DNA of 64,000 nt from an uncultured Opitutales bacterium (lineage in GTDB: Bacteria > Verrucomicrobiota > Verrucomicrobiia > Opitutales > Intestinicryptomonadaceae): assembly GCA_944389195.1 (NCBI GenBank), contig CALXLM010000025.1:1-64000 (forward strand), written 5' to 3'. Both the position numbers and the translations under genes were made by a program. The notes below the pieces were generated by a model. The model searched no databases and was not told the origin of the DNA. It worked only from the letters and a program-made list of their open reading frames with translations. Below are positions 1,518 through 10,248 of this stretch, one piece after another. Each line of letters begins with the position of its first letter. Position 1 is the stretch's first letter.

Positions 1518-1532
1518 GGTAAACAGTTTACT
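1518..1532. promoter_or_regulatory. Candidate LacI-family operator O1
   Basis: GGTAAACAGTTTACT contains a perfect 13-base odd-centred palindrome, GTAAAC-A-GTTTAC (1519-1531). Nearly the same 15-mer recurs at 5911-5925, in front of the transporter gene of the same locus and just behind the LacI-type gene. Odd- or even-centred dyads of this size are typical LacI-family sites. Confidence 0.6.
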
Positions 1533-1577
1533 AAATCCGGGGCTTAAAAGGCTTGCGCAATGCGTCCGGATTTTTTT
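1533..1577 (+). terminator. Terminator-like hairpin in the leader of the catabolic operon
   Basis: AAATCCGG (1533-1540) pairs with CCGGATTT (1566-1573), with a GC-rich loop and four further T after it. It sits directly downstream of operator O1 and 53 bases before the first start codon. It could stop transcripts arriving from upstream or act as an attenuator. Confidence 0.45.
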
Positions 1578-1629
1578 ACTTAAATGTAGAGATTTGTTCA
1601 ATTGCACAAACACCGTTGGGGAAAGCATA

Positions 1630-2166
1630 ATGACTACAAGAAGAGAATTTATAAGGAACGCCGCCGTTTTTTCCGCAGGGGCGGCTTTATACGGGTGCGG
1701 GAATCCGCCAGAGGGGCCGTTTAGCAAAAACGAGCGCGATTGCCTCATAGCGATGGCCGAGCAGATAATCCCTGCCGATAAAATCTACGGCGGGGCAACC
1801 GATGCCGGAGTAATTAATTATATTGAGAATTGGGTGACGCGCTATTGGCCCGAAACGCTGCCCCTTTACAAAAAGGGGGTAGAGAGCGTGCAGAGGGCTT
1901 CGCGGCGCATGCATTCGAAAGATTTTCAGGACCTCGATTTTGCGACGCAGACCCGCTTTATGGAGGCGATGGAGGGGGCGAAATTAGACGCCAAAGACTG
2001 GTCCATATCGCCGCGCGCCTTTTTTGACGAAATATTGATACGCTCAATGCAGGGTTTTTACGGGTCGCCGCGGCACGGGGGCAACAAAAACTTTATGTCG
2101 TACCGCATGCTCGGCATGGACATGCCGGTTGTGACGGGGCAAAATAGGTACGGGGGAAATTCGTAA
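1630..2166 (+). CDS. GMC dehydrogenase small subunit (gluconate 2-dehydrogenase subunit 3 family), Tat lipoprotein
   Basis: A 178-residue protein. The start at 1630 is chosen because a twin-arginine signal follows at once: Arg4-Arg5-Glu-Phe-Ile, a hydrophobic stretch, and a lipobox-like ALYGC with Cys23. The rest resembles the gluconate 2-dehydrogenase subunit 3 / hitchhiker family, including a segment LIAMAEQIIPAD and an aromatic-rich C-terminus. In characterised FAD-dependent gluconate, fructose and glucose dehydrogenases this subunit carries the Tat signal and exports the folded catalytic subunit, which has none. Its stop overlaps the start of the next gene by one base, so translation is probably coupled. 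It would be anchored in the periplasm. Confidence 0.85.
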   Translation: MTTRREFIRNAAVFSAGAALYGCGNPPEGPFSKNERDCLIAMAEQIIPADKIYGGATDAGVINYIENWVTRYWPETLPLYKKGVESVQRASRRMHSKDFQDLDFATQTRFMEAMEGAKLDAKDWSISPRAFFDEILIRSMQGFYGSPRHGGNKNFMSYRMLGMDMPVVTGQNRYGGNS

Positions 2167-3848
2167 TGGCTTCGGAGATAGTTCATCCAAAAACGGAAGT
2201 CGTTGTTGTAGGCGCGGGCGCCGGCGGCGGCATTGTGGCAAAGCAGCTTGCCGTGCGCGGCGTAAAGTGTATCCTTCTCGAGCGCGGAGACTGGCCGATT
2301 TACGACGAAAATTCAAACGACGAGCTTATAAACCAGCGCACTCACGCGATAAGGGCCATTCACGGCCCCGATACGAGAAAATTTCCGAGGGCGGTGTCCG
2401 ACGGAAAGGGGGGAGTGAAGGCGGCAGACCCGTGGTGGCCCGACCATACAGTAGTTGCCGCGTGCGTGGGTTCAGGAACGGTGACTTATGGGGCGATGGG
2501 GTGGCGTTTTATGCCGCAGGATTTCCGCCTCAAATCGACTTACGGCGCCATTGAGGGGTCGGCGCTTGAAGATTGGCCCATCTCGTACGACGATATCGAG
2601 CCATATTACGAACAGGCGGAATACGAAGTGGGCGTTTCCGGAGATATGTCCACAAATCCGTATGCGCCGCCGCGCAAAAAGCCGTTTCCTATGCCGGCTT
2701 TCGAATATAACTGGGAGGATGAAAACATAGTTATTCCGGCAATAAAGCGCCTCGGTTTGCACCCGTTCCCGATACCGATGCTCCGCAATTCGGTGCGCTA
2801 TAACGGGCGCGCGGCATGCATACGCAACCACACGTGCTGCGGTTATATGTGCCCTTGCGACGCAAAGAACGGCACGCAAAACACGGTGATACCCGTGGCG
2901 CTAAAAACGGGGAACTGCCAGCTGAGGACAAATTCCTTCGCGTACGAAGTTGTCATGGAGGGGCGCCGCGCTGTGGGTGTAAAATATTTCGATCTTGACA
3001 AGAACTCGCACTTCCAGCCCGCCGACGCCGTCGTGATAGCCGCGTCGGCTACGGAAACCGCACGGCTCATGTTCCTTTCAAAAAGCAAATTGTTTCCGGA
3101 CGGATTGGGAAACCAGAACGACATGCTCGGGCGCTGCATACACAGCCACATATACTGCGGCGCATGGGGGCTTTTCGACCGCGATGTGGAAAGGGAATTG
3201 GGGCCGGGCGCAACCGTCGCATTTTCCGATCTAAACCATATACCCTCTAAAAACATATTTGCGGGAGTGCTTTGCTCCGAATTTTACATGCTGCCTTGGG
3301 CGCGTTCGAAAGTTATTCCGCCGAATACGCCGCGTTGGGGAATCGGGCACAAGCAGCACATGATTAAAAACTACCGCCGCATGATCCGCATTGTCGGGCC
3401 CGTGCAGGAGATACCGATGTACGAGTCGCGCGTCGGCATAGAGCCTCGTTTGAAAGATTGGTTCGGGTTGCCGGTGTACAGGGCGATGCCGGGCGGCAAA
3501 AAACATCCGCTTTCGCTTGAGCAGACTAAAATCATGACGGAAACGGCAGCTGCGGTATTAAAGGAGGCCGGTGCGAAAACCGTATGTAAGGAGGGCGAAA
3601 AGGTTTACCTTAATTACGGAAGCGTGGGCGGGCAGCACCAGGCAGGTTCGTGCAGAATGGGGAACGATCCTAAAAAGTCGGTTGTGGATCCGCAGTGCAA
3701 GGTCTGGGATACTGACAACGTATGGATAGGCGACGGTTCGGTACACGTCAGCAACGGCGGATTCAATCCGGTCTTGACTATAATGGCTCTCGCTTTCAGA
3801 ACCGGGGAAAACGTTGCAAAATCGCTCGGCAAAGGAGGGGCTGCGTAA
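2166..3848 (+). CDS. GMC family FAD-dependent sugar / sugar-acid dehydrogenase, catalytic subunit
   Basis: A 560-residue GMC oxidoreductase. The FAD-binding Rossmann motif GAGAGGG is at 16-22, and the C-terminal GMC domain has the likely active-site His491 (in HQAGSCRMG) and Asn534 (in FNPVLTIM). Five cysteines cluster at 218, 224, 225, 229 and 231, where FAD-glucose and fructose dehydrogenases hold a [3Fe-4S] cluster used to pass electrons to cytochrome. There is no signal peptide, which fits export with the Tat subunit encoded just upstream. The start overlaps the previous stop by one base and the stop overlaps the next start. Likely reactions include oxidation of gluconate, an aldose, or the C3 hydroxyl of a glucoside; sequence alone does not decide. 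Confidence 0.88.
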   Translation: MASEIVHPKTEVVVVGAGAGGGIVAKQLAVRGVKCILLERGDWPIYDENSNDELINQRTHAIRAIHGPDTRKFPRAVSDGKGGVKAADPWWPDHTVVAACVGSGTVTYGAMGWRFMPQDFRLKSTYGAIEGSALEDWPISYDDIEPYYEQAEYEVGVSGDMSTNPYAPPRKKPFPMPAFEYNWEDENIVIPAIKRLGLHPFPIPMLRNSVRYNGRAACIRNHTCCGYMCPCDAKNGTQNTVIPVALKTGNCQLRTNSFAYEVVMEGRRAVGVKYFDLDKNSHFQPADAVVIAASATETARLMFLSKSKLFPDGLGNQNDMLGRCIHSHIYCGAWGLFDRDVERELGPGATVAFSDLNHIPSKNIFAGVLCSEFYMLPWARSKVIPPNTPRWGIGHKQHMIKNYRRMIRIVGPVQEIPMYESRVGIEPRLKDWFGLPVYRAMPGGKKHPLSLEQTKIMTETAAAVLKEAGAKTVCKEGEKVYLNYGSVGGQHQAGSCRMGNDPKKSVVDPQCKVWDTDNVWIGDGSVHVSNGGFNPVLTIMALAFRTGENVAKSLGKGGAA

Positions 3849-4843
3849 TGAAAAAGATGGCGGTTTTATATGTTGTCATAATATTGGCGTTTATCTTTGC
3901 GCTGTCGTCGGGGGCGTATGTGGCGTGGAACGTCGCCGATCCGGAATATACGTGCGCGCAATGCCACGAAATAAAACCGACGCATGAAAAGTGGTCTAAA
4001 TCGGCGCATGCCGACATTTCATGCTATGAGTGCCACGGTACGGCCATTTCCAACGGAATACACAGCCTTAAGGAAAAGTTGGGAATGGTGGTTTCGCATT
4101 TTGCCAAGGACGTGGAAAACCGCGATATAAAGATGACGGAAAAACAGGTGCTCGACGTCGCATCGCGCTGCGTAAACTGCCACCGTGCCGAATATTCGCA
4201 ATGGAAGTCTGGGGCGCATTCCACGACCTATGCGAATATATTCGAGGATAAGGTTCACAACCGCGCCGAAAAGCCATACTGGGAATGCCTGCGTTGCCAC
4301 GGCATGTTTTACGACGGAAACATTAAGGATCTCATGGATTTAGATGGCGGTCCGGACGATTGGAAAATAAAAGACCGCAGCCAGTGCGCAGTTGCGGCGG
4401 TTCCGTGTTTGGCATGCCACCAGATCCATATGGAAAAGAAGCGTCCTCCGGATTTCAAAAACTGCGCTGTTTCCGAAACGCCGCCGGATTCTTCGTCGAA
4501 GTTGTCTTTTTATGCGCGGGCCGAAAGGTCGCACATACCGGCTGCTTGCCTTACGCCGATCAAGATGTATCTTGGCGGCGGCGAGATAAAAAACAGTGCG
4601 GATCCCGCGCATGTATTGTGCCAGCAGTGCCACTCTCCAAACTGGAAACATGAGGCCGGTTCCTCGGACGACCGCACGCCGGTGGGGGCGCACGAGGGCA
4701 TGAGCTGTCTGGCGTGCCACAATCCGCACTCAGGAAGCGCCTCGGCGTCTTGCGCGAAGTGCCACGACGTTTCTTTGGAAAAATACAGGTTTAAAAAGGG
4801 CAAATGCCCCCAGTTTATAAACAAGGCAAAAAAGACCTCATGA
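3848..4843 (+). CDS. Membrane-anchored octahaem c-type cytochrome (NapC/NirT-like N-terminus)
   Basis: A 331-residue protein. One N-terminal membrane helix (about 4-26) is followed by eight CxxCH haem sites at Cys36, 59, 108, 147, 187, 258, 287 and 302. The first part resembles NapC/NrfH quinol dehydrogenases; the remainder is unlike the usual tri- or dihaem cytochrome subunits of GMC dehydrogenases. The start is the ATG overlapping the stop of the GMC gene. By position it should accept electrons from the GMC enzyme on the periplasmic side and pass them to quinone or to other periplasmic carriers; the direction is not determinable here. The gene ends in an ATGA overlap with the LacI-type gene. 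Confidence 0.85.
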   Translation: MKKMAVLYVVIILAFIFALSSGAYVAWNVADPEYTCAQCHEIKPTHEKWSKSAHADISCYECHGTAISNGIHSLKEKLGMVVSHFAKDVENRDIKMTEKQVLDVASRCVNCHRAEYSQWKSGAHSTTYANIFEDKVHNRAEKPYWECLRCHGMFYDGNIKDLMDLDGGPDDWKIKDRSQCAVAAVPCLACHQIHMEKKRPPDFKNCAVSETPPDSSSKLSFYARAERSHIPAACLTPIKMYLGGGEIKNSADPAHVLCQQCHSPNWKHEAGSSDDRTPVGAHEGMSCLACHNPHSGSASASCAKCHDVSLEKYRFKKGKCPQFINKAKKTS

Positions 4844-5892
4844 GTTCGGAAAAGCCCGTAAGCATGCGCGATATCGCCGAACGCCTCGGAATATCGAAAG
4901 GATCGGTGTCTCTGGCGCTTAACGATTCGAAGAAAATATCCGACAAGATGAAGGCGAAGGTAAGAAAACTCGCCCAAAAGCTCGGATATAAGCGCAACGC
5001 TCTCGTATCGAGCGTAATGGCCGGGCTAAAAGGTTCGAAGCATAACCAGTTTCTTGAGACCATAGTTTTAATAAACGCAAACAAATCGAGCGACGCTCCT
5101 CAAAAATATCCGATTTTTTCGAAATATATAGCGGGAATCCGTGCCGAGGCGAAAATACTCGGATACGCCGTTTACGAAGTATGGCTTCACGACAAGCGTT
5201 TAAATCCGTCGAAACTCCAGCGTATTCTATTGTCGCGAGGTATCAGAGGGGGAATTATAATGGGGCATGTGGGCGACAACATTCTTCCCGATAAATTCGC
5301 TCCAATATGGCAGAACTTTAAGTTTGTTTCGGCGGGGCTTAAGACGTTTAATCCGATACTCGACTTTATTTCCGCAGATAAATTTCTGATAGCCCACTAT
5401 GCCACCAAGAAAATATTGGAGCGTGGATACAAGCGCCCGGCGCTTATTTTGTCGGAACATATAGACGAGCTTGTCGAGGGCAGGTTTGTCGGCGGATTTT
5501 TGCGAGCGCAGTTGGAGTTGCCCGAAAAGGACAGGATACCTCCGTTTTTGCAGATTTCAGAGGCCGAAAAAAATCCGCAAATTCTATACGATTGGCTTTC
5601 CGAACGCAAACCTGACGTAATATTCTCGATATCTAATTCTACGAGCGAATGGTTTGCAGAGCGCGCCACGGCGGTGCCGCAGGATTTGCCCGTGATACAT
5701 CTCGAAAGAAAATACGGCAAAAACGAGTGGGTGGGCATAGATCAAAATTACGAGATGGTCGGCCGCATAGCGGTCCGCAAGCTTTTTACGGCGCTGAATG
5801 CGCCGGTGTATTTGAAGGATGCCGACGTCCGCACGGCGACCATAGTTCTTCCTAAATGGAACGATCCAGTAGTTCTTAAACCGAAGGCCTGA
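4840..5892 (+). CDS. LacI family transcriptional regulator
   Basis: A 350-residue protein. The N-terminal helix-turn-helix (MRDIAERLGISKGSVSLALN, about 9-28) and hinge region are typical LacI; the rest is a periplasmic-binding-protein-like sensor domain. The ATG at 4840 overlaps the previous stop (ATGA) and is preferred to an earlier in-frame ATG at 4804, which lies inside the cytochrome gene. Its place in the middle of the catabolic locus, and two matching 15-base dyads at 1518 and 5911, suggest it represses the dehydrogenase operon and the transporter operon until a pathway metabolite binds. Confidence 0.92.
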   Translation: MSSEKPVSMRDIAERLGISKGSVSLALNDSKKISDKMKAKVRKLAQKLGYKRNALVSSVMAGLKGSKHNQFLETIVLINANKSSDAPQKYPIFSKYIAGIRAEAKILGYAVYEVWLHDKRLNPSKLQRILLSRGIRGGIIMGHVGDNILPDKFAPIWQNFKFVSAGLKTFNPILDFISADKFLIAHYATKKILERGYKRPALILSEHIDELVEGRFVGGFLRAQLELPEKDRIPPFLQISEAEKNPQILYDWLSERKPDVIFSISNSTSEWFAERATAVPQDLPVIHLERKYGKNEWVGIDQNYEMVGRIAVRKLFTALNAPVYLKDADVRTATIVLPKWNDPVVLKPKA

Positions 5893-5910
5893 CGGGTTTC
5901 TATCCGTATA

Positions 5911-5925
5911 GGTAAACAGTTTTCC
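5911..5925. promoter_or_regulatory. Candidate LacI-family operator O2
   Basis: GGTAAACAGTTTTCC matches 13 of 15 bases of the dyad at 1518-1532, including the first 12 in a row. It is an imperfect palindrome with one mismatched arm position around a central A. It lies 81 bases before the transporter start. A possible -10 element TATAAT is at 5958-5963, so the site would fall upstream of or within that promoter. Confidence 0.55.
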
Positions 5926-6005
5926 AAAAATCATGCAATGCGTTGTTGAAGGGCTCGTATAATCGGTATAAAAAATAAAATACTTTTTTAACTATGGAGA
6001 ACGAT

Positions 6006-7268
6006 ATGGACGATACTCGCACAAAAGATTATTACAAATGGTTTTTGCTTCTGTTTTTATGGGTGGCTTTTTTCCTCCACCAGGGTACGCGCCAGATTTA
6101 CAACGCGATTCTTCCGCAAATACAAAATACTTTCGAGGTCGATTCCGTAAAAATGGGCATAGTCGGAACCATTTTTACGCTGACATACGGAATATGCGCG
6201 CCGCTTTCGGGCTTTGCCAGCGATTTTCTTAAAAGAAAATGGATGGTCATAGTGGGGCTCGGAGTTTTCTGTTCCGGCATATTTTTGTCGGGCTGGGTGA
6301 CGTGCATCGGAATGATGATAGTATTTTACGGGCTGCTCAACGGCGCCGGACAGGCGTTCTATTATCCGGCCGCGTGTTCGCTGCTCGGACAGCTCCACGA
6401 AAAGACGCGCGCCACCGCTCTTGCCATTCACCAGACTGCGCTTTACGCCGGAATAGTAATCTGCAGCTGCGTTTCGGGACTTTTTGCCGACATACCTTCG
6501 ATGGGAAGCTTTAACGGGTGGAGGATCCCGTTCATACTTTTCGGCGGGATAGGCATATTGTGGGCGTTTATGCTTGTATTTTTGATGCGCGATACAAAGC
6601 CGGTTGCTTGCCCGAAGGACGGCGACGCTCCTGCAAAGGCTTCCTTTAAGGACGCATTCTTGGTGATGTTCCGCAAGCCCGCCGCAATGTCGCTGGCTTT
6701 GGGGTTCGGCATGATGGTGTATGTTGATTGCGGCTTTAAAACGTGGATGCCGACGTTTCTTCAGGAGCATTTCCATATGGACGCGGCCGTCGCCGCGACG
6801 AACGCCGTTGTATGGCATTATGTGGGCGCCTTTATAGGCGTCATGGCGGGCGGGCGGATAACCGACAGGCTTGCCCCGAAACGCCGTACCATTCGTTTTG
6901 AGGCGAATATAGCCGGCTTGATTTGCGGCGCGCCGTTTATATATCTCATGTCGAGCACGCCGTCCGAAACACTTTGCTGTCTGGGCATGCTTGCGTTCGG
7001 CGTATGCCGCGGGATTTACGACTCAAATCTTTTCGCCTCGCTTTTCGACGTGGTTGCGCCGCGTTATCGGGCGTCGGCTTCGGGGCTCATGCTGTGTTTT
7101 GCATTCATAATCGGCTCTTCGGCTCCGATGGTTCTGGGCTGGATACGCGACAATTTCGGAATGAATTACGGAATAGCGTCGCTTTCGGCGTTTTATCTTG
7201 CCGGGGGCGTGATTATCTTGCTGGGGCGCAATTTGTTTTTCAACCGCGATTTTGAAGAGGTAAAATAA
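6006..7268 (+). CDS. MFS transporter, probable sugar-acid or organic-anion permease
   Basis: A 420-residue protein with 12 predicted membrane helices. The start at 6006 is chosen over an in-frame ATG at 5994 because GGAGA (5996-6000) sits at ideal distance before it. The first half shows the order of a major facilitator carrier, with the loop between helices 2 and 3 reading GFASDFLKRKW; the family looks closest to the anion:cation symporter / hexuronate and sugar-phosphate groups. Given its neighbours, it most likely imports the product of the periplasmic GMC dehydrogenase or the parent sugar acid. It heads a second block of the locus preceded by operator O2. Confidence 0.85.
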   Translation: MDDTRTKDYYKWFLLLFLWVAFFLHQGTRQIYNAILPQIQNTFEVDSVKMGIVGTIFTLTYGICAPLSGFASDFLKRKWMVIVGLGVFCSGIFLSGWVTCIGMMIVFYGLLNGAGQAFYYPAACSLLGQLHEKTRATALAIHQTALYAGIVICSCVSGLFADIPSMGSFNGWRIPFILFGGIGILWAFMLVFLMRDTKPVACPKDGDAPAKASFKDAFLVMFRKPAAMSLALGFGMMVYVDCGFKTWMPTFLQEHFHMDAAVAATNAVVWHYVGAFIGVMAGGRITDRLAPKRRTIRFEANIAGLICGAPFIYLMSSTPSETLCCLGMLAFGVCRGIYDSNLFASLFDVVAPRYRASASGLMLCFAFIIGSSAPMVLGWIRDNFGMNYGIASLSAFYLAGGVIILLGRNLFFNRDFEEVK

Positions 7269-7292
7269 AAAATAAAGGAAAGTGCCACACAT

Positions 7293-8084
7293 ATGGAATA
7301 TTCAGATGACATTCAGCTAAAAAAACGCTTTGATTTGACTGGGCACAGGGCGTTTGTGACGGGATCTGCCAGGGGAATCGGCAGGGCCATAGCGCTCGGT
7401 CTGGCCGAATACGGGGCGCGCGTCATACTGCACGGCGTCGCGGAAAGCCAAAAGTTGGGAAGCGCGCTCGAATCGGTGCGCAAATTGAGCCCAGACAGTT
7501 TTTCGGTGACGGGCGACCTCGGCGATCCCAAGGTTCCCGCAAAAATAGCGGAGCAGATAAGCGCAAAATGCGAGCTTCCCGACATATTTGTCGCGAACGC
7601 CTCTGTTCAGTTCAGAACGCCTTGGAATGAAATTCCGCTTGAAGAGGCTCTTTTGCAGATGCAGGTTAATTTCCATTCCACGCTCATGTTGGCGCAGTTG
7701 TTCTATCCCGTTATGAAGGCCCAAAAGTGGGGACGGATAGTGGCGGTAGGCAGCGTTCAGGAATTTCGCCCGCATCCGCAGATGGCGGTGTATGCGGCGA
7801 GCAAATCGGCGCAGGAAAACCTTGTGAGAAATATAGGAAGGCAGATTGCCTGTGAGGGCATTACAGTAAACAACATTTGCCCCGGGGTTTTTGCAACCGA
7901 CCGCAACGACGCGGCTCTTTCGGATCCGGTCTATGCCAAACAGGTCACCGACTGCATACCGACGCATACGTACGCAGAACCCGCCGATGCGGCGGGGGCG
8001 GCGGTCTTGCTGTGCTCCGAGGCCGGACGGTACATTACGGGCGCAAATATCGTAATCGACGGCGGATTGAGGCTTCCGGGCTAA
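7293..8084 (+). CDS. SDR family NAD(P)-dependent oxidoreductase
   Basis: A 263-residue classical short-chain dehydrogenase. The cofactor motif TGSARGIG is at 23-30, NAS at 102-104, and the catalytic Ser154, Tyr167 and Lys171 are all in place; the family C-terminus (GANIVIDGG) is intact. It resembles gluconate 5-dehydrogenase / FabG-type enzymes. Twenty-four bases separate it from the transporter gene. In this setting it could oxidise a 2-keto-3-deoxy sugar acid or reduce a keto sugar acid; the substrate is not shown by sequence. Confidence 0.88.
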   Translation: MEYSDDIQLKKRFDLTGHRAFVTGSARGIGRAIALGLAEYGARVILHGVAESQKLGSALESVRKLSPDSFSVTGDLGDPKVPAKIAEQISAKCELPDIFVANASVQFRTPWNEIPLEEALLQMQVNFHSTLMLAQLFYPVMKAQKWGRIVAVGSVQEFRPHPQMAVYAASKSAQENLVRNIGRQIACEGITVNNICPGVFATDRNDAALSDPVYAKQVTDCIPTHTYAEPADAAGAAVLLCSEAGRYITGANIVIDGGLRLPG

Positions 8085-8137
8085 GGGCTATTTTAAACCG
8101 GTGTTAAATTTAGGCTTAAATTCAACAAAAAATAGAT

Positions 8138-8893
8138 ATGTCTGAACAAAAAGAAGATAATATGCTTCAAAAAGAAGCAAAAATGATGAAACTTGAAAAT
8201 CTAATCCGCGAAAGGGAGGGAATTTCCAAGGTGGAATTTCCGGTTCCCGTCAAGGAGCTATTGCAGCGTTATGAAGCCCTTTATACGGGCGCCATCAACG
8301 ACGTTATGCGGGAGTTTTGCATGCTTAACCAAGCTCTGCCTCACCGCATAATACCCCTCCGGCCTGAACGCACGGTTGCGGGGGTCGCTTTCACCGTAAA
8401 GAGCGCCCCCAATGTAAAAATTACAGGCGAAATGACTTTCCGCAGCGAAATGCTCGACGCCATGCATGAAGACGCGTTTGTGGTGTGGGATACGAGCCTC
8501 GACGAGGAAGCCACGCTTTGGGGCGGTGTTATGACCGCCACAGCTGTGGGCAAGAAAGTGCGCGCCGCATGCATCGACGGCGGAATACGCGACACGCACC
8601 AGATACTGGAAAAGGATTTTCCGGTGTTTTACAGGTACAGGATTTCCAACGGAAGCCTTGGGCGCTGCCTTATCACGCACTATCAGATTCCGATAAAAAT
8701 CGGGAATGTCACAATCAAGCCCGGAGACATTATAATGGGCGACATTGACGGCGTTCTCTGCGTTCCCCGCGAGATTGCCTGGGACGTTCTCGTGCGCGCC
8801 GAAGAGATCCGCGAAAATGAAAAGAAGATTTTTTCGTGGGTCAACGCTGGTGAATCGATAGATTCCATAACCAAAAAGGGAGGCTATTTCTAA
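8138..8893 (+). CDS. RraA-like aldolase / decarboxylase family protein
   Basis: A 251-residue protein of the RraA / 4-hydroxy-4-methyl-2-oxoglutarate aldolase family, once annotated as dimethylmenaquinone methyltransferase. The family core is present: Gly129-Gly130 and then ACIDGGIRDT at 144-153, with Asp147, Arg151 and Asp152 matching the metal and substrate site. Catalytic members split 2-keto acids by metal-assisted retro-aldol cleavage or decarboxylate oxaloacetate. The likely role here is the last, carbon-splitting step of the pathway. The start is uncertain: ATGs at 8138, 8162 and 8183 are all possible and none has a strong ribosome site. Confidence 0.82.
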   Translation: MSEQKEDNMLQKEAKMMKLENLIREREGISKVEFPVPVKELLQRYEALYTGAINDVMREFCMLNQALPHRIIPLRPERTVAGVAFTVKSAPNVKITGEMTFRSEMLDAMHEDAFVVWDTSLDEEATLWGGVMTATAVGKKVRAACIDGGIRDTHQILEKDFPVFYRYRISNGSLGRCLITHYQIPIKIGNVTIKPGDIIMGDIDGVLCVPREIAWDVLVRAEEIRENEKKIFSWVNAGESIDSITKKGGYF

Positions 8894-8925
8894 ACGGCAG
8901 CCGCGCTGCCTAACATGGGACGGAA

Positions 8926-10248
8926 ATGAAAATCGATCCATCATCATTGAAAATAACGGATATGCGCTTTGCCGACATCGACGGAGCGCCGAAACGTTGC
9001 ACTCTAATAAAGCTCTATACAAACCAGGGGCTTGTCGGATACGGAGAAGTGAGGGACGCATCGAGCAGGACTTATGCGGCCATGCTCAAGAGCCGGATAC
9101 TCGGGGAGAATCCGTGCAACGTCGAAAAAATATTCAACCGCATAAAGCAGTTCGGAGGCGATTCGCGCCAGGCGGGCGGCGTGTGCGGCATAGAGGTGGC
9201 GTTGTGGGATTTGGCGGGAAAGGCCTGGGGAGTTCCCGTATGGCAGCTCCTCGGCGGGAAATACCGCGATAAGATCCGCATATATTGCGATACCGACAGC
9301 GAAGGCGGCGGCAGGGACATGGGGAAAGCACTTAAAGAGCGAGTCGCCCAGGGGTACACCTTCCTCAAGATGGACTTGGGAATTGAGCTTCTAATGGACG
9401 TTCCCGGTGCGTTGTCTGCTCCGCTCGGATTCCTCGAGAAGATGCGCGAGTACAAAAAGACAGTGTTCACCACGCCGCACGGTTCGATAGACCCCCGCGC
9501 GATGCGAGGAGAGGCGTACGATTTGTTTAACACCGCCCACCCCTTTACAGGCATACACATCACTGAAAAGGGGCTCGACTATTTAGAGCAATACATGGCA
9601 GATTGCCGAGCGGAGGTCGGGTACGAAATTCCGCTGGCGATAGACCATTTGGGACATATCCCGTTGGAGGATTGCATAAAGCTCGGCAGAAGGCTTGAAA
9701 AATACAATCTTTCCTGGATGGAAGATCCCGTTCCGTGGCAGTATACCGACCAGTATGTAAGGCTGGCCAACGCCACGACGACGCCGATAGGCACGGGGGA
9801 AGACATCTATCTGAAAGAGGGATTTATGCCGTTATTAAAGTCGGGCGCTCTTGCCGTCGTACACCCCGACATACTCACAGCGGGTGGAATTCTCGAAACG
9901 AAAAAAATCGGAGACCTCGCAGAGGAATACCATACTGCGATGGCGATTCATATGGCCGAAAGTCCGATAGCCTGCATGGGCGCGGTCCACGTTGCGGCCG
10001 CCACGCGCAACTTTACGGCCCTTGAAGTCCATTCGGTCGATGTTCCGTGGTGGGATAGCCTTGTAAACGGGCTTCCGAAGCCGCTTGTCAAAAACGGCTA
10101 TATTGACGTTCCGACGTCTCCGGGATTAGGCATAGAGTCGCTTAACGAGAATCTTATAAAGGAAAAGCTCCACGAGGACTTTCCTGAGGCCTGGGGGGAC
10201 ACCTCCCAATGGGACAAGGAGTGGTCTAACGATAGGCGCTGGTCCTAA
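8926..10248 (+). CDS. Mandelate racemase / muconate lactonizing enzyme family sugar-acid dehydratase
   Basis: A 440-residue enolase-superfamily enzyme. The N-terminal capping domain leads into a barrel with a likely catalytic Lys148 (in FLKMD) and metal ligands Asp240 (in AIDHLGH), Glu266 (in MEDP) and Glu292 (in GTGED); His342 follows in AIHMAES. Asp followed directly by His differs from the usual KxK racemases, and the stretch between Lys148 and Asp240 is about 45 residues longer than usual. These enzymes commonly dehydrate aldonic or uronic acids to 2-keto-3-deoxy acids. It is the last gene of the locus, followed by a strong terminator. Confidence 0.85.
   Translation: MKIDPSSLKITDMRFADIDGAPKRCTLIKLYTNQGLVGYGEVRDASSRTYAAMLKSRILGENPCNVEKIFNRIKQFGGDSRQAGGVCGIEVALWDLAGKAWGVPVWQLLGGKYRDKIRIYCDTDSEGGGRDMGKALKERVAQGYTFLKMDLGIELLMDVPGALSAPLGFLEKMREYKKTVFTTPHGSIDPRAMRGEAYDLFNTAHPFTGIHITEKGLDYLEQYMADCRAEVGYEIPLAIDHLGHIPLEDCIKLGRRLEKYNLSWMEDPVPWQYTDQYVRLANATTTPIGTGEDIYLKEGFMPLLKSGALAVVHPDILTAGGILETKKIGDLAEEYHTAMAIHMAESPIACMGAVHVAAATRNFTALEVHSVDVPWWDSLVNGLPKPLVKNGYIDVPTSPGLGIESLNENLIKEKLHEDFPEAWGDTSQWDKEWSNDRRWS

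Follow-up and report, generated by a model that had tools for sequence, protein, structure and literature searches.

A LacI-family protein of an uncultured Opitutales bacterium is a probable class I activator that acts from odd operators 20 bases upstream of the −35 element

The LacI-family protein encoded within the window (the whole 64,000-nucleotide stretch analysed here) probably acts as a class I activator at composite promoters, switching on genes for sugar breakdown. The protein would bind two 15-base operators at its own locus, each of which would form part of a composite promoter element of the form RGTWAACNGTTWACY-N20-TTG-(about 20)-TAnnnT, and a LacI dimer centred approximately 62 bases upstream of the transcription start would recruit RNA polymerase. 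The predicted targets are the dehydrogenase–cytochrome–lacI operon, activation of which would amount to positive autoregulation, the MFS–SDR–RraA–enolase operon and a pair of secreted GH10 enzymes encoded elsewhere in the genome. The probable inducer is a sugar, or a sugar acid, that is set free from a GH10 substrate.

The original prediction described twin operators framing a catabolic locus and its lacI gene, and the sequence bears out this arrangement. Operator 1 (GGTAAACAGTTTACT) is located on the forward strand at 1518–1532, with its centre at 1525, and operator 2 (GGTAAACAGTTTTCC) on the same strand at 5911–5925, with its centre at 5918. The two 15-mers share 13 of 15 bases, and operator 1 contains a perfect, odd-centred palindrome of 13 bases (1519–1531). 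As had been claimed, the former precedes the dehydrogenase operon and the latter lies between lacI and the transporter gene. Both in the window and in the aligned sites described below, the operator is an odd palindrome of 15 bases with a C-N-G centre. A forward-strand −35 element, TTGCGC (1553–1558), begins exactly 20 bases past operator 1 and is followed by a weak putative −10 sequence, TACTTA, near 1577–1582. Similarly, TTGAAG (5946–5951, forward strand) begins exactly 20 bases past operator 2, with TATAAA at 5967–5972 as the candidate −10 element.

A ferritin-like/Dps gene (629–1060) precedes four forward-strand frames (1630–5892) that overlap or abut one another. The first, gdh3 (1630–2166; PF13618, E = 9.5e-21), encodes a gluconate 2-dehydrogenase subunit 3-like protein with an N-terminal RR-type signal (TTRREFIRNAAVF). 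It is followed by genes for a GMC-family FAD dehydrogenase (2166–3848; PF05199 and PF00732), a multihaem cytochrome c whose N-terminus is NapC/NrfH-like in profile searches (3848–4843) and the LacI-family regulator (4840–5892). Since the cytochrome gene and lacI have a 4-base overlap, lacI is downstream of operator 1, and a predicted control site stands before the gdh3–GMC–cytochrome–lacI unit, as in an autoregulated local regulon. The second block, also on the forward strand, spans 5994–10248 and encodes an MFS transporter (5994–7268; PF07690), the start of which may be at 6006, with GGAG at 5996–5999; an SDR oxidoreductase (7293–8084), whose best NCBIfam matches include gluconate 5-dehydrogenase; an RraA-like aldolase family protein (8138–8893; PF03737); and a galactonate dehydratase-like, enolase-superfamily sugar-acid dehydratase (8926–10248; PF13378, with NF010624 below its cutoff). 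Together, the GMC dehydrogenase, the gluconate-dehydrogenase-type small subunit and the NrfH-like multihaem cytochrome of 1630–4843 resemble an unusual respiratory sugar dehydrogenase. In-frame TAG codons occur in the GMC dehydrogenase homologs of L083 and L085 (G014:C108 and G001:C54); these codons could reflect decay of the respiratory module in some relatives or errors of assembly.

A DNA-inserting hinge leucine and an even, CG-centred operator are usual, although not universal, in the LacI/GalR family. The 4840–5892 protein departs from this pattern, as its hinge, read against CcpA, is NALVSSVMAGLK, with Val or Met where LacI has Leu (L56). It does have a LacI helix-turn-helix (PF00356, E = 5e-10; 39.4 bits against a cutoff of 27) and a periplasmic-binding-protein-like sensor domain (PF00532, E = 7e-5; 22.9 bits against a cutoff of 22.2), and its weak homologs in the PDB are LacI proteins. 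Judged by these profile matches, membership of the LacI/GalR family is clear despite the departure in hinge and operator.

When sites were aligned on the operator, a TTG was found exactly 20 bases past the palindrome, on the side of the target gene. In a set of sites collected regardless of promoters, this spacing is present in 14 of 17, as well as at both window sites, and the TTG is in most cases followed by a weak −10 element. In an operator-only set, TTG occupies offset 21 in 15 of 34 oriented flanks, with counts of 0–3 at every other offset; against a background of 1.4% per position this gives p ∼ 2e-19, or ∼ 1e-12 on 13 independent promoters. Base frequencies across 41 sites display AAA just past the operator and TTGA at +21 to +24, although part of this set was found with TTG in the query, so that the height of TTG there is biased, unlike the 15 of 34 in the operator-only set. 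A −10-like TAnnnT lies 18–22 bases past the TTG in 20 of the 41 sites, compared with 8.5 in shuffles. Counter to the activator reading, the lacI-proximal site of G017 has no TTG at +21. An alternative TTG offset, shifted by 5 bases, was tried and rejected: it gave fewer matches, and these were mostly operators failing the TTG rather than new sites.

In many targets an ATG is found 35–40 bases past the TTG (for example L100 4882, L102 5364, L096 4871 and L093 4999), which suggests that transcription starts at or just before the ATG and that the operator centre lies at −62. Leaderless or nearly leaderless transcripts are therefore likely in this Verrucomicrobiota genus, but for some targets only, because across these genomes TTG shows just a mild general bump approximately 35 bases ahead of ATGs.

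LacI is the textbook repressor, and the original prediction had tacitly treated the two sites as repressor operators. This part of it is probably wrong, as judged from promoter geometry: a LacI-type repressor operator would overlap or follow the promoter, whereas both sites stop 20 bases short of the −35 element, and the fixed N20-TTG recurs in relatives and paralogs. If transcription starts about 35 bases past the TTG, the operator centre falls near −62, as in a class I promoter. Moreover, a fixed −35 register across unrelated promoters is required for contact with RNA polymerase and not for repression. It is improbable that the protein is instead an ordinary LacI repressor, looping between sites or blocking the alpha subunit from upstream until released by inducer. 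Repression is the mode of most known LacI-family members, a loop could form between two sites that are 4.4 kb apart on the same operon, and some lacI-proximal sites in relatives are at repressing positions. However, neither window site overlaps a −35 element, a −10 element or a start, most target promoters of relatives have a single site, and the −35 distance is fixed to the base in more than ten unrelated promoters and in a second paralog, a register for which a repressor has no need.

Across the 2.37-Mb genome, the sole sites with no more than one mismatch to GGTAAACNGTTTACC are the two window 15-mers (reversed control, 1). Eleven further sites have two mismatches, and six of these are inside genes and without the promoter element; the scan did not turn up the equally good intragenic matches that would have spoken against the original prediction. 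One two-mismatch site, C2:34489 (GGTAAACAGTTTTCT), is positioned between a divergent GH10–GH10 pair and a melibiase-like gene, and there the spacing marks the GH10 side and not the melibiase side. Another, C40:114699, precedes a gene for a 688-residue protein with a signal-like N-terminus. Motif counts within the window and reversed-pattern counts in the single genome were discarded as tests, since signal and chance are told apart by position and spacing but not by such counts. The 15-mers could conceivably be a chance likeness of two AT-rich palindromes, as the degenerate motif is at chance level within the window (7 seen against 6.6 expected, with up to two mismatches), but this is already refuted by the N20-TTG spike and by relatives that keep the sites in matching positions, and its probability is negligible. 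The pair stands above chance because it is conserved in relatives and because of its exact 20-base distance to TTG.

In the genome with a 90% LacI ortholog (G017), lacI and the MFS gene are each preceded by a site, and a GH10 pair has a perfect one. In the genome with an 86% ortholog (G007), a perfect site is found directly before lacI (L047 9251), the counterpart of operator 1, and a site also precedes three GH10 genes. Operator 2 recurs with identical sequence and place in both genomes. In the four genomes with orthologs of 57–61% (G013, G011, G002 and G010) the operon reads lacI–MFS–SDR–RraA–enolase and the operator is RGTTAACNGTTAACY or a close variant. The recognition helix differs alongside the operator, SKGSVS becoming SKAAVS or SKCAVS where TAAAC becomes TTAAC, and in G013, G011 and G010 GH10 genes lie directly before lacI. 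G006 and G008 are without a close lacI ortholog, and here the element sits at the enolase ortholog itself.

The third site of the bacterium's own genome precedes two GH10 genes. Because ortholog sites are conserved, a GH10 site is present here and GH10 genes adjoin lacI in distant relatives, the predicted regulon, comprising GH10 enzymes, the transporter, sugar-acid enzymes and lacI, is taken to be real; it also includes GH10 and other genes that lie outside the window. The claim of one regulon over both transcription blocks agrees with the sites before both, which are kept in relatives, and predicted autoregulation is consistent with the place of lacI downstream of operator 1 and with the site directly before lacI in G007. 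Elsewhere in the genus the dehydrogenase–cytochrome module is a separate locus. No site was found before the GMC module in G017, G007, G006 and G011, where the module stands elsewhere. The absence runs counter to the activator reading; it also suggests that this lineage captured the module, placing it between the operator and lacI.

The genome encodes five lacI homologs. A paralogous LacI has a different odd palindrome, RYGCAACNGTTGCRY, which occurs exactly once in each of eight genomes and, in six of the eight, adjacent to the gene of the paralog or to the same target gene. At these loci (L221 1501, corresponding to G000:C23:4216, and L217, L219, L220, L223 and L224) it lies between the paralog and a divergent secreted enzyme gene (FERGMGIGGWLTNYKR), and is followed, towards the enzyme, by N20-TTGAC at five of the six; at the sixth (L219, in G008) the distance is 21 bases. 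A third composite, ACTTTACAGTAAAGT-N20-TTGAAA, adjoins a G007 paralog. Within the family 40 composite sites were found, compared with none in the reversed control, and the composite is present in 10 of 12 genomes with LacI homologs and in none of seven without (Fisher p = 0.0007, without phylogenetic correction). A whole LacI subfamily in this Opitutales family, including paralogs with different half-sites, may on balance consist of dedicated class I activators with an odd 15-base operator exactly 20 bases from the −35 element and an ATG often 35–40 bases past the TTG, leaderless or nearly so. A perfect palindrome, TTTTATCGGATAAAA, followed by N20-TTG occurs in two species, in neither of which a predicted gene follows closely (L055 16445, reverse strand; L053 16163, forward strand); it is possibly another regulator's site or belongs to an RNA gene.

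The presence of so many homologs also bears on which protein uses the operators. Another LacI paralog, or several, could use the sites, the encoded LacI being one user of an operator shared by the family. The five homologs are in keeping with this, as are the composite sites of G006, one of them before an enolase gene despite the lack of a close ortholog, and sites at amylase and adhesin-like genes near other lacI genes in G007 and G017. It is nevertheless an unlikely alternative, as the best two sites of the genome flank this lacI, the third precedes GH10 genes, which neighbour the lacI ortholog elsewhere, and the genome's own C23 paralog has a distinct motif. Single sites are not assignable to one protein with certainty, because several LacI paralogs have nearly identical half-sites.

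Beyond this family the composite occurs no more often than expected by chance, with 43 matches in 254 genomes of the order's other families and ∼ 73 in the reversed control, which rules out a wide spread of the operator through the order. A search for N20-TTG at the lacI genes of other families instead turned up palindromes close to the ATG of lacI. In other Opitutales families these are odd palindromes, ACTTGACNGTCAAGT or RCTTTACNGTAAAGY, approximately 20 bases before the lacI ATG (L194 1467, L202 1476, L203 1476, L206 1485 and L212 1485), a placement that would be one for self-repression. In G008, a lacI ATG follows one site after 10 bases. Counter to activation, this site and the palindromes of other families fit repression of lacI itself, and such self-repression may coexist with activation or be ancestral.

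If class I activation is confirmed, this clade would show a repressor family turning into an activator family. The operator-N20-TTG rule makes promoters and sugar regulons of uncultured Opitutales predictable and, where two genes diverge, identifies the controlled one. There are precedents for LacI-family proteins that activate, and odd operators, though known, are rare. Searches of the literature on LacI operators in Verrucomicrobia returned nothing relevant, and Verrucomicrobia are absent from the text of Ravcheev et al. (2014; PMC4052901). Within the reach of these searches, a LacI clade with one rigid activator geometry is new, as is any LacI regulon for this lineage of uncultured Opitutales.

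The closest likeness in mechanism is to CcpA of Bacillus subtilis, a LacI/GalR protein that activates ackA, pta and ilvB from palindromes upstream of −35 in a helix-face-dependent manner (PMC3463425). CcpA, however, acts chiefly as a global repressor, binds even cre boxes with a CG centre and uses HPr-Ser-P as cofactor (PMC3463425), whereas the system described here would be a local regulator with an odd-centred operator and a single rigid spacing at almost every site. Two further members of the LacI family, PckR of Rhizobiales and Cra/FruR, activate some promoters by prediction or demonstration, but these are dual global regulators of central metabolism with other motifs (PMC4052901). In its geometry the predicted promoter resembles the class I CRP promoters of Escherichia coli, such as lac, where the site is centred at −61.5 (PMC6301791): the centre near −62, set by an inferred start, is upstream of a separate −35 element, although the two protein families are unrelated. 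Finally, the locus has the makings of the LacI-family regulons of RegPrecise, namely a local sugar regulon, autoregulation and a regulator gene beside its targets (Ravcheev et al., 2014; PMC4052901). It differs in its motif, as the LacI-family motifs there comprise 96% even palindromes, typically centred on CG, and 4% odd ones (PMC4052901), the latter being the class to which the 15-base palindromes with a C-N-G centre belong.
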